From Acidobacteriota bacterium (GTDB taxonomy: Bacteria > Acidobacteriota > JAAYUB01), in assembly GCA_016935015.1 (NCBI GenBank), contig JAFGRT010000059.1, forward strand, positions 1 through 34,701: DNA of 34,701 nucleotides. Reading direction: 5' to 3'. The notes below the pieces were generated by a model, which worked only from the letters and a program-made list of their open reading frames with translations, was not told the DNA's origin and made no database searches. The translations under genes were made by a program, and so were the position numbers. This document shows positions 1 to 5,203 of this stretch, one piece after another. Every line of letters begins with the position of its first letter. The first letter of the stretch is position 1.

Positions 1-146
1 GGGGCGGCAAGCCGGGGGAGTATGTGTTCTTTCTGGATTTCGAGGGGGATGCCCGTGACGGCCGGGTGACCGATATGCTGCAACAGGTCAGCGAGCTGAC
101 CACTTCCTTCCGGGTTCTGGGCAGCTATCCGGTGGCACAAGAGTAG
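1..146 (+). CDS. pheA: Prephenate dehydratase (P-protein), C-terminal ACT-domain end; 5' truncated by window edge
   Basis: The open frame is read from base 3 and ends at the TAG at 144-146. It encodes the last 47 residues of a protein, including GGKPGEYVFFLDFEG and, near the end, VLGSYP. These are the hallmark strands of the regulatory ACT domain that closes bacterial prephenate dehydratases, where phenylalanine binds for feedback inhibition. The enzyme converts prephenate to phenylpyruvate in phenylalanine synthesis. Only the C-terminus is visible, so I cannot say whether a chorismate mutase domain is fused at the N-terminus. A terminator follows directly, so this is the last gene of its transcript. 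Confidence 0.85.
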   Translation, partial: GGKPGEYVFFLDFEGDARDGRVTDMLQQVSELTTSFRVLGSYPVAQE

Positions 147-196: not shown

Positions 197-1282
197 CTAC
201 AGGGCGATGCGACCCTCGGCAGGGCGTGGGATGGGGTAGACGGCGTGAATGTCCTCCAGTCCGAGAATGGCGTAGGTCAGCCGTTCCACGCCGAAACCGC
301 CGCCGGCGCAGGAAATGGCGCCATCGCCGGCATCCAGGGCGGTGAACATGTCGAAAAAAGGGCGGAAATATTCCACCGGATAGCCCAGTTCCGCCATGCG
401 GCGGCGCAGATCAGCCAGGGAACGGGTCCGCTCGGCACCGGACAGGCACTCCACGGGATGGGCGTTGCGGCCGTGCGGCGGCAGGACCACGTCATAGTTG
501 AGAAAGCGGCCACTGCTTTCATCGAAACAGTCATAGGCCTCCCGGCGCAGATTGACCAGGAAAAAGGGCCGGCCGCCGGTTCGCGCGGCCGCCCAGCGCT
601 CCACGGCGTCGTCGTCGGCCAGCCGTTCGCGTTCCCGGATGTCCTGGACATCGAAGACCGGCAGATCGACCGTCAGTTGTGGCAGCGGGGCACCCCGCAG
701 CTGGATCAGTGTTGCCGGATGGTGTTCATTGAGGAAGGCGTACAGCCCGCCGAGGAGACTGGAAATGAAGGGGAGCATCTCCGCGTAGGAGGCGGCGCGC
801 TGCTCGAAATCCACCTGCATGAATTCGGTGGTGTACTTGTAGCCACGGCCGCCGGTGCGGGTTTCCATGCGGATATTGGGTGAAGCCCAGAACACCTTGT
901 CCACGGGTGAGAGCATCACCATCAGGATTTTTTGGAAAATCAGCGACTGGGTCAGGGAGATCTCCTCGCCGTAGTAGTCCAGCCGGGCGGGGTAGGTGCA
1001 GTGATTCAGGGGATCGGTGCACCCGGCCAGCATGTAGATGGGGGGATGGACGTAGCCCGCTTTCGCCAGTTCGCGGCACAGATACTGCTGGATGGCGGTG
1101 CGGATTTCCAGAATGCGTTGCAAGCGCTCGTTGCGGAGAGCCTGGCGGGTCTGCTGCAGGGCGGCTGTCCGGCATGGATCGGTCATGTCGAGGGGCCGGA
1201 TGTTCGTTATCGCCAGGGATGAAGATGGGAGCGGCCGTTGGTCGGTTGCCGGGAGGGAGGAAATCGGGATTCGCGGTGACAT
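197..1282 (-). CDS. Archaeal-type asparagine synthetase (AsnRS/AspRS-core paralogue, AS-AR type)
   Basis: This 361-residue protein is a class II aminoacyl-tRNA synthetase catalytic core without the OB-fold anticodon-binding domain. Motif 2 is seen around residues 134-160 (SPNIRME, then EFMQVDFE). Motif 3 is around 326-353 (GGGFGVERL, ending YPIPR). Other stretches, TDPL (89-92), TQSLIFQK (111-118) and NYDVVLP (262-268), match what I recall of the Pyrococcus abyssi paralogue shown to be an asparagine synthetase, which makes asparagine from aspartate, ammonia and ATP. The neighbouring divergent gene is an AsnC homologue, which supports this role over tRNA charging. An N-terminal extension of about 45 residues precedes the conserved core. 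The start at 1282 is favoured by a GGAG-containing site just upstream; Met33 has none. The alternative is another synthetase-like paralogue such as EpmA, but the asparagine-family motifs fit better. Confidence 0.8.
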   Translation of the reverse strand: MSPRIPISSLPATDQRPLPSSSLAITNIRPLDMTDPCRTAALQQTRQALRNERLQRILEIRTAIQQYLCRELAKAGYVHPPIYMLAGCTDPLNHCTYPARLDYYGEEISLTQSLIFQKILMVMLSPVDKVFWASPNIRMETRTGGRGYKYTTEFMQVDFEQRAASYAEMLPFISSLLGGLYAFLNEHHPATLIQLRGAPLPQLTVDLPVFDVQDIRERERLADDDAVERWAAARTGGRPFFLVNLRREAYDCFDESSGRFLNYDVVLPPHGRNAHPVECLSGAERTRSLADLRRRMAELGYPVEYFRPFFDMFTALDAGDGAISCAGGGFGVERLTYAILGLEDIHAVYPIPRPAEGRIAL

Positions 1283-1313
1283 CTTTCTTCTCCGGGATCT
1301 ATGACTTGATGAT

Positions 1314-1343
1314 ATGATAGACTTTTTGTAAAATAAATGTCAA
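1314..1343 (-). promoter_or_regulatory. Promoter for the asparagine synthetase gene
   Basis: Read on the minus strand, TTGACA (1338-1343) and TATCAT (1314-1319) are separated by 18 bases. The match is 6/6 and 5/6 to the sigma-70 consensus. Predicted transcription starts a few bases before 1310 and leaves a leader of roughly 25 bases before the ATG at 1282. It lies back to back with the asnC promoter. Confidence 0.65.
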
Positions 1344-1353
1344 TATAAAAAAA

Positions 1354-1366
1354 TATTTGACAAATA
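1354..1366. promoter_or_regulatory. 13-bp palindrome, candidate AsnC operator
   Basis: TATTTG-A-CAAATA is a perfect palindrome with a one-base centre and covers the -35 box of the asnC promoter. It is also one side of a larger imperfect inverted repeat formed by 1338-1346 and 1353-1362. Lrp/AsnC proteins bind AT-rich palindromes of about 15 bp, so it could be an autoregulatory site. The whole gap is AT-rich, which raises the odds of chance symmetry. Confidence 0.4.
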
Positions 1367-1385
1367 ATAATCACATATATATAAT
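1357..1385 (+). promoter_or_regulatory. Consensus sigma-70 promoter for asnC
   Basis: TTGACA (1357-1362) and TATAAT (1380-1385) are separated by exactly 17 bases, a full consensus promoter. It sits in the most AT-rich stretch of the window and would start transcription near 1392, leaving a leader of about 43 bases before the asnC ATG at 1435. An overlapping palindrome suggests repression. Confidence 0.75.
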
Positions 1386-1434
1386 AAGTCGGTAAAATTT
1401 GATGATGTGATAATTTATTTGCAGAAAGGCGGCC

Positions 1435-1890
1435 ATGAATTATCAAATTGACACCATCGACCGGCACATCCTGCGGCGACTGCAGGAAGATTCGCGCACA
1501 GCCTACCTGGAAATCGCCCGGGAACTGGGAGTGGCCGGCGGGACCATCCACGCCCGCATCCACCGTTTGCGCGAGGCGGGAGTTGTCCGGGGAGCGAGGA
1601 TCGTCCTGGATCCCATGCGCCTCGGATATACGGTGGCGGCCTTCATCGGCATCCGGCTGGTTCATGCCCGCAGCTGCGGCGACGTGCAAGCGGCTCTGGC
1701 TCGTTTTCCCGAGATCGTGGAAATCCATTACACCACCGGCACCTACAGCCTGCTCATCAAGGTGGTGGTGCCGGAGATGCGCGACCTGCACGCTCTCCTT
1801 TTCGACAAGCTGCAGCAGCTGGAGGAGATCCAGTCCACGGAAACCTTCGTCATCCTGGACACGCGGGTGGATCGGGACCTGGCCCTGTAG
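1435..1890 (+). CDS. asnC: AsnC-like transcriptional regulator (Lrp/AsnC family)
   Basis: This 151-residue protein has the full family layout: an N-terminal helix-turn-helix (residues about 5-55, with the recognition region near GTIHARIHRLREAG) and a C-terminal ligand-binding RAM domain (about 65-145). It matches remembered E. coli AsnC more closely than Lrp. Shared blocks are RTAY, GTIH.R, AG...GARI, LGY.V..FIGI, YTTG.YS..IKV and EIQSTET. E. coli AsnC activates the asparagine synthetase gene asnA and is antagonised by asparagine. Here the divergent neighbour is a different kind of asparagine synthetase, so a role in asparagine-responsive control is likely but inferred. An AAAGGCGG-like site precedes the ATG. 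It converges on the mltA gene with a 9-base gap. Confidence 0.85.
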   Translation: MNYQIDTIDRHILRRLQEDSRTAYLEIARELGVAGGTIHARIHRLREAGVVRGARIVLDPMRLGYTVAAFIGIRLVHARSCGDVQAALARFPEIVEIHYTTGTYSLLIKVVVPEMRDLHALLFDKLQQLEEIQSTETFVILDTRVDRDLAL

Positions 1891-1899
1891 CCGGCGGCG

Positions 1900-3105
1900 T
1901 TATTTGGGGGCGAGGAAGAAAAGGCGGCCGGGCCGCTTGAGGTGACCGGCCACCTGCTCGCTGGCCGGTCCGAAACCGGTGAAGAGGTCTACCCGGCCGG
2001 CGCCGCGGATGGCACCGCCCGTGTCCTGGTTCAGCACAAAGGCCCGAAATGGCTGCCAGTCAACGCGCTGGCCGCTTTCGTCGAACACCGGCAGTTCCGT
2101 TTCCACGTAACAGAGAGCGCCCGGCGGGAAGAGGCGCCGGTCGGTGGCGATGCTGCGGTAGGGGGTCAGGGGCCGGTCCAGCATGCCCAGCGGGCCGTTG
2201 TCCACTTCCCGGAAAAAGATGTAACTGGGATTGGTGCTCAGGATTTCCTCCAACTGGAACGGGTGTGCTTCCAGGTAGTGGCGAATGCTCTGCATGGAGA
2301 CCTGTTCCGGTGTCAGGATCTCCCGCTCCAGCAGCCAGCGACCGATGGCATAATACGGGTGCCCGTTGCGCTGGGCGTAGTTGACCCGCACGGTCTCGCC
2401 GGATTCCAGCTCCACGATGCCCGATCCCTGGATATGCAGAAAGAAAGCATCCAGGAGGTTGTCCGTCCAGATCAGCTCGAAATCGCGTCCGGACAGCACT
2501 CCCTGGAAATCGATCTCGTGACGGGTGAAATACGGGCCGACAGTGCCATCGGGCAGCTGGCGTCCGATGAGAACGGCGGGCAGCCCCGGGCAGGTGCCGG
2601 CTGACGGAAATTCAGCCAGCCGAATGGGGACCAGGTCGTCCGGGGTCCGATACAACGGAAACCGGTAGCGGTCAGACGGCCGCCGTGAGCCGTGTACATG
2701 GGCCTCGAAATAACCGGTGAACAAAACTTTCGCGGCGGCAGATTCGTATAAATCGAAGTGGTGGGTTACCCAACTACGAAATTCGTCCGTCGGTCCGGCG
2801 ATGGAATAGCGGGCCAGGAATTCCTCCAGACCGGCCATGACCTGTGGGGCGGGCACGGTGACTGGTCCATATCGCAGCACCGTCGCCGGTTCCAGGGTGG
2901 CCAGGTAGGCCAGACTTTCATGGATGCCCCTGGTCAGGGAATCGGCCGCCAAATCGTCGGCCAGGGTCGGGGCGGACGCCGGGGTCAGACTGTTGGTGGG
3001 GGTCCATTCCAGTGGCGGTTGCAGGAGCCACCACACGGCCGCCGCCAGCAGGAGGAGGAGCAGAGCAGCCGGCACCGCCAGCCGGTACACGGTTTTTCGG
3101 GTCAC
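1900..3105 (-). CDS. mltA: Membrane-bound lytic murein transglycosylase A (MltA, with 3D domain)
   Basis: The protein cleaves the peptidoglycan glycan backbone to form 1,6-anhydro-muropeptides. It carries the MltA core, seen as LFTGYFEAHVHGS followed by PLYR, and the C-terminal 3D domain with NQDTGGAIRGAGRVDLFTG. The last Asp of that block corresponds to the catalytic acid of E. coli MltA. The N-terminus has basic residues followed by a long hydrophobic stretch (about residues 8-28) with no lipobox, so it is probably a membrane anchor rather than a lipoprotein. The frame opens further upstream with a TTG at 3162, which has no ribosome binding site. The GTG at 3105, preceded by a GGGG tract, gives a typical signal-anchor start and is preferred, though not certain. 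Confidence 0.88.
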   Translation of the reverse strand: MTRKTVYRLAVPAALLLLLLAAAVWWLLQPPLEWTPTNSLTPASAPTLADDLAADSLTRGIHESLAYLATLEPATVLRYGPVTVPAPQVMAGLEEFLARYSIAGPTDEFRSWVTHHFDLYESAAAKVLFTGYFEAHVHGSRRPSDRYRFPLYRTPDDLVPIRLAEFPSAGTCPGLPAVLIGRQLPDGTVGPYFTRHEIDFQGVLSGRDFELIWTDNLLDAFFLHIQGSGIVELESGETVRVNYAQRNGHPYYAIGRWLLEREILTPEQVSMQSIRHYLEAHPFQLEEILSTNPSYIFFREVDNGPLGMLDRPLTPYRSIATDRRLFPPGALCYVETELPVFDESGQRVDWQPFRAFVLNQDTGGAIRGAGRVDLFTGFGPASEQVAGHLKRPGRLFFLAPK

Positions 3106-3203
3106 GGTTTTCCCCGCAACGGAATTTGCGGCTACAGTAACGCAATCAGAAAGCCGGTGCAAGCACTTGTTGTCGGAACGGACACCGCTGCGGTGCGGAA
3201 AAA

Positions 3204-3234
3204 CCGACCGGCCGGTCGGGGAGTCTGCTATAAT
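3204..3234 (+). promoter_or_regulatory. Extended -10 promoter of sppA with overlapping 16-bp palindrome
   Basis: TGC-TATAAT (3226-3234) is a perfect extended -10 element. No good -35 box lies at the right distance. Instead a perfect 16-bp palindrome, CCGACCGG followed by CCGGTCGG (3204-3219), occupies that space. The placement is typical of an operator, but no regulator is visible nearby. The resulting leader to the sppA start would be about 105 bases. Confidence 0.5.
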
Positions 3235-3297
3235 CGGGAATTATCGATGGGTACGTGGGATGCAATCCCGTATATCTGATTCATTATACATCGTTTC

Positions 3298-3335
3298 AGT
3301 TAAAAAACAAACCGATTAGTTAAAGAACAAACCGA
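3298..3335 (+). repeat. 20-bp-period direct repeat in the sppA leader
   Basis: An 18-base unit beginning AGTTAAA and ending CAAACCGA occurs at 3298-3315 and again at 3318-3335, with one mismatch (A to G). The second copy runs into the ribosome binding site GAGGAG (3334-3339) of sppA. It looks like a recent short tandem duplication in an untranslated leader. Confidence 0.8.
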
Positions 3336-3346
3336 GGAGAAACCCA

Positions 3347-5203
3347 ATGTACGATGAGGAACGACGGAAATCCGGCGGCCTGGGCTGCCTGTTCCGGGGG
3401 ATCGATGTGACGCGCCGTGTCATTCTGAACGTGATCTTCTGGGCACTGGTCATCGCCGTGATCGTGCTGCTGCTGCGGGACACCACGCCCGACGTACCCG
3501 ACAGCGCCGCGCTGGTCATTTCGCCACAGGGGGATGTGGTAGAGCAGCTGGCGGGGGATCCCGTGGAGCGGCTGCAGGAACAGTTGACCGGCGGCGGCGG
3601 ACCCGAGACACTGCTCAAGGATCTGGAGGATTCCATTCTCGCCGCCAGGGACGACGAGCGAATCAAGGCCCTCTTGCTGGACCTGGATTCCATGGGCAGC
3701 ATCGGGCTGAGCAAGCTGCAGGACCTGCGGGTTGCCCTGCGGGAGTTCAAAAAATCGGGCAAACCCGTGATCGCCGCGGCCGACACCTATGACCAGAACC
3801 GTTACTACTTGGCGGCGATGGCCGATGAGATCTATCTCCATGAAATGGGGATGCTCCTGCTGGAAGGATTCAGCCGCTATCGCATGTACTACAAGGAAGG
3901 GCTGGGAAAACTCATGGTGGATGTGCATGTGTTCAAGGTCGGCACCTTCAAGTCGGCGGTGGAGCCGTATCTGCGCCAGGACATGTCCGAGGAGGCCAAG
4001 ACCGCCAACAAGGAATGGCTGGGCGACTTATGGCGGCGGTATCTGGAAGATGTGGCCGAGTCCCGGAAAGTCTCTGTGGCCGCGCTCCAGGAATATATCG
4101 AGGGCTATCCCGACAACCTGAGCCGGGCCGAGGGCGATGCCGCCAAAATGGCCCTCAGCGCCGGTCTCGTGGATCATGTGGTCAGCCGGGATGCCATTCG
4201 CCGGCGGATGATCGAACTGGTGGGGAAAGATGAAAAGACGCATTCCTTCCAGCAGATCGGTCATGACAGTTACCTCCAGGCACTGGACAAGGACCGGTTC
4301 GGCGCCGAAGCCGAGGGTGACCTGGTGGGCGTCGTCGTGGCTGTGGGCAACATTCTGGGCGGCTCCCAGCCGCCGGGCAAGATCGGCGGAGACTCCACCG
4401 CGGCCCTCATCCGCCAGGCGCGGGAAAACGAAAATGTCAAGGCCGTGGTGTTGCGGGTGGACAGCGGCGGCGGCAGTGCCTTCGCCTCGGAAGTCATCCG
4501 GCGGGAACTGGAACTGACCCGCCAGGCCGGCAAGCCGGTGGTGGCGTCCATGGGCACCGTGGCCGCCTCGGGCGGCTACTGGATCACCATGGCTTCGGAT
4601 GAGGTCTGGGCGGCACCCACGACCATTACCGGCTCCATCGGCATTTTCGGCATGTTCCCGACCTACGACCGCGGTCTCAAGGAATACCTGGGGATCAGCG
4701 TGGACGGCATCGGCACCACCCCCTACGCCGGCGCCATGCGGCCCGATCGTCCCCTGGACGACAGGGTGGGGCAGTTGATCCAGCAGACCATCAACAAAGG
4801 CTATCGCGACTTCATTACCAAGGTGGGTCAGGCCCGCAACATGACGTCCGAAGAGGTGGACCGCATCGCCCAGGGGCGTGTCTGGAGCGGCGAGGATGCC
4901 CACGAGCTGGGTCTCGTGGACAACATGGGTTCACTGCAGGACGCTATTGCCGCGGCGGCCAAACTGGCCAAGCTGGGTGATGAGTACAAAGTGAAGTACA
5001 TGGAGCGGGAGGTCTCCTTCCGCGAAAAGATCCTGCGCGATATCTTCAGCGGCATGGTGCAGGTTCTGGGGAAGCATCCGTCCCTGCAGTCCGCACTGCC
5101 GCCGCCGCTCAGCACGATGCGACTGTTGGCCGAACAGGCAGCCAAGATCGCCGAGTTGAACGATCCCCAGCATATGTATGCCTATTTCCCCTATGAGGAG
5201 TGA
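3347..5203 (+). CDS. sppA: Signal peptide peptidase SppA, long (67K) type
   Basis: This 618-residue membrane protease degrades leftover signal peptides in the cytoplasmic membrane. One transmembrane segment lies at about residues 25-43. Two tandem S49 domains follow, as in the E. coli long form. The general-base lysine is visible as Lys202 in KVGTFKSAVEPY. The nucleophile is Ser408 in VAASGGYWIT, followed by TITGSIGIFG. These match K209 and S409 of E. coli SppA in position and context, so the enzyme should be active. The length equals the family norm. A GAGGAG site sits 7 bases before the ATG. The gene is monocistronic and converges on ackA. Confidence 0.95.
   Translation: MYDEERRKSGGLGCLFRGIDVTRRVILNVIFWALVIAVIVLLLRDTTPDVPDSAALVISPQGDVVEQLAGDPVERLQEQLTGGGGPETLLKDLEDSILAARDDERIKALLLDLDSMGSIGLSKLQDLRVALREFKKSGKPVIAAADTYDQNRYYLAAMADEIYLHEMGMLLLEGFSRYRMYYKEGLGKLMVDVHVFKVGTFKSAVEPYLRQDMSEEAKTANKEWLGDLWRRYLEDVAESRKVSVAALQEYIEGYPDNLSRAEGDAAKMALSAGLVDHVVSRDAIRRRMIELVGKDEKTHSFQQIGHDSYLQALDKDRFGAEAEGDLVGVVVAVGNILGGSQPPGKIGGDSTAALIRQARENENVKAVVLRVDSGGGSAFASEVIRRELELTRQAGKPVVASMGTVAASGGYWITMASDEVWAAPTTITGSIGIFGMFPTYDRGLKEYLGISVDGIGTTPYAGAMRPDRPLDDRVGQLIQQTINKGYRDFITKVGQARNMTSEEVDRIAQGRVWSGEDAHELGLVDNMGSLQDAIAAAAKLAKLGDEYKVKYMEREVSFREKILRDIFSGMVQVLGKHPSLQSALPPPLSTMRLLAEQAAKIAELNDPQHMYAYFPYEE

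Follow-up and report, generated by a model that had tools for sequence, protein, structure and literature searches.

An AsnC-type regulator gene lies divergently beside a gene for a class II synthetase-like protein close to the start of the window (the whole analysed stretch of 34,701 nucleotides), which raises the question of what this protein makes and how it became the partner of such a regulator. The pair is probably an asparagine-biosynthesis unit, with an enzyme of the archaeal asparagine synthetase (AS-AR) type under an AsnC-type regulator; from sequence comparisons we put the probability of this reading at about 0.8.

Organization of the locus

The features of the region are as follows:

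1–146, plus strand: C-terminal end of a probable prephenate dehydratase (PheA, ACT part), frame 3, truncated by the contig start; a neighbour only
197–1282, minus strand: gene for the AS-AR-like asparagine synthetase, 361 aa; open reading frame with a class II core and no anticodon-binding domain
1283–1434: divergent spacer between the enzyme and regulator genes, 152 bp, 27% G+C, presumed regulatory from its sequence
1314–1343, minus strand: candidate enzyme promoter, TTGACA-N18-TATCAT (consensus scan, 11/12 positions)
1357–1385, plus strand: candidate regulator promoter, TTGACA-N17-TATAAT (consensus scan, 12/12 positions)
1435–1890, plus strand: gene for the AsnC-type regulator, 151 aa, with HTH and RAM ligand domains (PF13404 and PF01037)

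The preliminary description had proposed the two open reading frames, and both were recovered, with products of 361 aa from the minus strand (197–1282) and 151 aa from the plus strand (1435–1890). The regulator gene is followed by mltA and then sppA. The prephenate dehydratase end reads GGKPGEYVFFLDFEGDARDG...VLGSYPVAQE* in frame 3, and a Pfam search with these 47 residues gave no match. Prephenate dehydratase adjoins the AsnC/synthetase pair in two families (window, 1–146; L027, 1–816), flanking the enzyme gene in one of them and the AsnC gene in the other.

A consensus scan of the spacer region gave four promoter-like sites against 1.1 expected. The two sigma-70-like candidates in the 152-bp spacer stand back to back, both near consensus. 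Inverted repeats in the spacers of 12 loci, judged by eye, revealed no convincing common operator word. The divergent layout is shared with asnC-asnA of Escherichia coli, where the spacer measures 151 bp against 152 bp here; the window pair differs in its enzyme, which is AS-AR-like and not AsnA, and in a candidate enzyme promoter that is near consensus.

Identity of the enzyme

The sole Pfam match of the 361-aa enzyme is PF00152 (62.5 bits), the catalytic domain that it shares with bacterial AsnRS, AspRS, LysRS and EpmA; no anticodon-binding domain was found, and PF03590 (AsnA) does not recognize the protein. Both AsnRS and AspRS have an N-terminal anticodon-binding domain, which the window enzyme lacks. 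The closest PDB entries by sequence are the AS-AR of Pyrococcus abyssi (3p8t, 98 bits) and P. furiosus (1nnh, 92 bits). The earlier recognition of a class II core resembling archaeal asparagine synthetase and lacking an anticodon-binding domain is thus confirmed. The best NCBIfam model, NF005054 “asparagine synthetase A,” gave 159 bits, under its equivalog cut-off of 309, and NF005052 gave 89 bits, with the cut-off of 368 not reached. The enzyme is therefore a divergent relative, and its function is better worded as working like AS-AR than as membership of an equivalog family. An AF2 model (mean pLDDT 79, with the N-terminal 28 residues and two loops poor) was compared with the PDB by fold, and the top five matches were all AS-AR crystals, including 3reu, 3rl6, and 3p8t.

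Phylogenetic analysis took in AS-AR, AsnRS, AspRS, LysRS, EpmA, and ten proteins of the window type. The enzyme falls within the AS-AR group, split at 100/99 from AsnRS, AspRS, LysRS, and EpmA; this in silico placement answers the concern raised in the preliminary description that the protein might belong with EpmA, LysRS, or genuine AsnRS. AsnRS forms its own clade (100/98), which contains the AsnRS encoded in the genome of the window (G000) and leaves the window enzyme outside. The ten window-type enzymes make up one bacterial clade (100/100) nested with the P. abyssi and P. furiosus AS-AR at 97/95, on a long stem of 2.28 changes per column.

With the archaeal AS-AR (P. abyssi, 3p8t/3reu/3rl6; NF005054/NF005052) the window enzyme has in common the free-standing class II core, the fold, the tree group, and the motifs TDPL, SPNIR.E, and EF.Q.D.E. 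It differs in its identity of about 30%, its position in a bacterial clade on a long stem, its scores below the equivalog cut-offs, its pairing with AsnC, and an insertion around PPxGxNPHPVE before the ECLSGAERTRS motif. By sequence criteria, the enzyme is a distinct bacterial subfamily of AS-AR, about 30% identical to the archaeal proteins. Calling it the archaeal type, as had been done, holds for its place inside the AS-AR group and needs qualifying for the long stem and low identity of this bacterial branch.

Active-site columns kept in the enzyme are TDPL, S113...K118, SPNIR.E, EF.Q.D.E, R285, and R334. K118 and R285 align with the K and R of AspRS, at columns that we take to be its aspartate recognition positions; AsnRS is without the K, and in LysRS and EpmA the R285 column holds Q. 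The reading frame is intact, and the active-site positions do not vary among members from at least two phyla.

EpmA likewise consists of a free-standing class II core, similar in length (325 aa in E. coli), and the window protein could on that ground be a tRNA-independent aminoacyl ligase, either EpmA-like or another modifier of proteins or small molecules. E. coli EpmA, however, joins LysRS in the tree, apart from the window enzyme and across the 100/99 split; at the R285 position of the AS-AR group, EpmA and LysRS carry Q; AS-AR ranks first among the fold matches; and such a ligase would give the AsnC partner no reason to be there. We consider a ligase function very improbable.

Identity of the regulator

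Both PF13404 and PF01037 match the regulator over cut-off, and its best solved match is E. coli AsnC (2cg4), with 44% identity over 148 residues. In a tree with Lrp-type outgroups from the phylum it groups with E. coli AsnC at 98/96, while the node of all AsnCs drops to 59/56 once Bacteroides homologues are added. The NCBIfam AsnC equivalog gives it 157 bits, below the cut-off of 227 bits, which is also missed by the AsnA-linked AsnC of a sister genus (202 bits against 227). The grouping and the identity agree with the previous designation of the protein as a near-orthologue of E. coli AsnC, a wording that is a little strong in view of the equivalog score. The stretches YTTG and EIQSTET, which distinguish AsnC, are conserved, and Y100, T101, Q128, Q134, and S135, seldom seen in other members of the Lrp family, do not vary among the AS-AR-linked and AsnA-linked regulators; the AsnC ligand-domain residues are thus common to the window regulator and that of E. 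coli.

Asparagine supply

The G000 assembly is 96.8% complete and encodes an AsnRS (616 bits), so that free asparagine is needed. A genome search did not find AsnA (PF03590) in G000. Two other candidate routes were rejected: the single PF00733 match, examined as AsnB, is an NAD synthetase, and the GatB match, which would point to tRNA-dependent asparagine synthesis, is GatE, followed by GatD. A true GatB was not found in G000, which has GatDE instead. As searches of this draft assembly found no AsnA, AsnB, or GatB, the paired enzyme is the apparent sole source of asparagine, with an overlooked AsnB or GatB possible at the given completeness.

The archaeal-type GatE and GatD genes of G000 (contig C85, L159) are located on the plus strand at 1920–4049 and 4033–5082, and both products are over the NCBIfam cut-offs (GatE, 475 bits against 456; GatD, 403 against 310). 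The substrate described for GatDE is Glu-tRNA(Gln) (PMC9499178), which leaves tRNA-dependent asparagine synthesis without a visible enzyme in G000. The same 2022 review states that GatDE occurs only in archaea (PMC9499178). GatD and GatE are present, with true GatB absent, in two other genomes that encode the enzyme (G399 and G398), and in G003, a relative from the window's family, GatE lies on the contig of an AsnC-AsnA pair and true GatB is likewise absent. Besides L159, the loci of these genes are L160 (3650–5725), L161 (1280–4665), and L162 (1494–4986). Surveys of bacterial asparagine routes list AsnA, AsnB, and GatCAB (e.g., PMC4206432); a genome like G000 would be scored in them as having no route and called an asparagine auxotroph.

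Among the other genomes with the enzyme, likewise searched as draft assemblies, AsnB was not found in G142 and G399, and GatB is present in G142 and was not found in G399. AsnB-type proteins are present in G007, G035, and G244, so the enzyme is not the sole asparagine source there, and the members without an AsnC partner (G396–G398) also carry AsnB. The searches for AsnA and AsnRS covered the genomes other than G396–G399 and G451.

The pair could be real but its enzyme dispensable or decaying, with asparagine made on tRNA or taken up. Bacteria can dispense with Asn synthetases when they have GatCAB and a non-discriminating AspRS (PMC4206432), and in one relative, G025, the enzyme gene is reduced to a fragment containing a stop codon (L005, 1504–1797), with no AsnC nearby. 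G025 has no recognisable AsnRS and contains several AsnB-type proteins and GatB; its fragment may represent decay where free asparagine is no longer needed. For the window this explanation is improbable, given the intact frame, the active-site positions invariant across two or more phyla, the near-consensus promoter candidates, and a genome with archaeal-type GatDE only and no GatB.

Conservation of the pair

Whole-genome searches revealed close homologues of the enzyme (59–67% identical) in G007, G035, G142, and G244, all from the phylum of the window; other members came from Myxococcota, Krumholzibacteriota, and a Deltaproteobacteria MAG. The survey of adjoining asnC genes suggested in the preliminary description found AsnC divergently adjacent in seven of ten intact members (G000, G007, G035, G142, G244, G399, and G451), spanning four lineages and at least two phyla. 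Recurrence of the divergent pair in six other genomes indicates that the arrangement is not due to chance. Within the loci of the Myxococcota and Deltaproteobacteria members (3/10), AsnC is absent.

AsnC-type regulators occur in just eight of the 396 genomes of the phylum sample, and their neighbour is always an asparagine synthetase, AS-AR-like in five genomes and true AsnA in three. A regulator model scored these eight genomes at 255–270 bits and the next match at 127 bits, a gap inflated by training rows, since seven of the eight rows of the model came from those genomes. E. coli AsnC, which is not part of the model, separated the same group (110–150 bits) from the rest (at most 92 bits). 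The conserved link with the regulator points independently to asparagine, and in this respect the regulator reinforces the call for the enzyme, as had been argued before. By pointing out the metabolite, the regulator gives a clear indication of function for a bacterial AS-AR branch that is still uncharacterised.

No homologues of the enzyme were found in phages, and only three, all distant, on plasmids. Proteins of the AS-AR group annotated as “asparagine synthetase A” are encoded on a Streptomyces plasmid (NZ_CP108868.1; L140, 4980–5957) and a Methylobacter plasmid (NZ_CP091425.1; L139, 4983–5963), where the neighbouring genes code for methylaspartate mutase, a glutamate-synthase-like protein, MbtH, and NRPS, or for a B12-binding protein. 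These plasmid proteins possibly amidate 3-methylaspartate.

The long stem of the window-type enzymes (2.28) and their NCBIfam scores below cut-off make a changed substrate possible. The enzyme might amidate another aspartate-like compound, such as 3-methylaspartate, or make another acyl-adenylate product, with AsnC sensing asparagine for other reasons. Other uses of the fold are suggested by the gene neighbours of the distant homologues: methylaspartate mutase, MbtH, and NRPS on the Streptomyces plasmid, and a B12-binding protein on the Methylobacter plasmid. The visible surroundings of the window pair, however, contain neither a mutase nor an NRPS gene; contexts vary among the members while AsnC stays; the aspartate-recognition columns are kept; G000 and G399 show no AsnB, and the AsnRS of G000 has no other apparent source of asparagine. 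Another substrate is thus unlikely, and asparagine synthesis remains the preferred reading.

Proposed function

The enzyme would activate aspartate with ATP in its class II synthetase active site; ammonia, in place of tRNA, would then accept the aspartyl group, and free asparagine would be released, as in the reaction of archaeal AS-AR. The AsnC-type regulator would bind the shared 152-bp spacer and tune expression of the enzyme and of itself by asparagine. In G000 the product would be used by AsnRS, for which the enzyme is the only detectable supplier. Catalysis, the use of ammonia, asparagine as the effector, and the sign of regulation are what we infer in this scheme. In E. coli, asnA is activated by AsnC, an effect that asparagine abolishes (PMC4482635). 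The near-consensus candidate promoter of the window enzyme would be no less compatible with repression under plentiful asparagine than with E. coli-style activation under scarcity.

Probable change of the enzyme partner

Three genomes of a sister genus in the window's family (G001–G003; loci L056–L058) encode a true AsnA (TIGR00669, 401 bits; cut-off 293) divergently beside AsnC. Architecture, regulator type, and bacterial family are common to these pairs and that of the window, and their AsnC is 50% identical to the window regulator; the differences are the AsnA itself and the other genomic neighbours. A single bacterial family thus provides a natural example of regulators of one type partnered by two distinct enzymes serving the same reaction.

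The regulator tree separates the AsnCs by partner: those linked to AS-AR group together at 89/89, and those linked to AsnA join E. coli AsnC at 90/83. With homologues from Aeromonas, Proteus, and two members of the Bacteroides group added, the values are 83/92 for the AS-AR-linked and 93/93 for the AsnA-linked group. In-place replacement of the enzyme in the window lineage was considered and rejected, as the regulators split by partner and the sister locus has other neighbours. The separate clades indicate that each pair seems to have been inherited as a unit. At moderate support from these sequences, the exchange of partner would lie deep in the AsnC tree and would have happened once or rarely, the pairs being inherited as units thereafter. 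The earlier view that the regulator was kept and the enzyme swapped is accordingly right at depth, as an older event, but not for an exchange in place. The tree of the enzyme subfamily is mostly unresolved, so that strict co-inheritance at a fine scale is neither supported nor contradicted.

A broader proposal, to which we give even odds, is that AsnC represents a conserved core of asparagine control in several phyla, which has exchanged its enzyme between AsnA and the AS-AR-like protein, both derived from class II synthetases. In bacteria such as G000, the AS-AR-like enzyme would be the sole asparagine source alongside archaeal-type GatDE for Gln-tRNA, and both amide amino acids would depend on archaeal-type machinery.

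Adjacency to AsnC was seen in three of the 30 AsnA loci of the phylum, all three in G001–G003. AsnA proteins of the phylum (L066–L092), almost never beside AsnC, fall into length classes of about 340–346 and about 375–412 aa, with some open reading frames longer.
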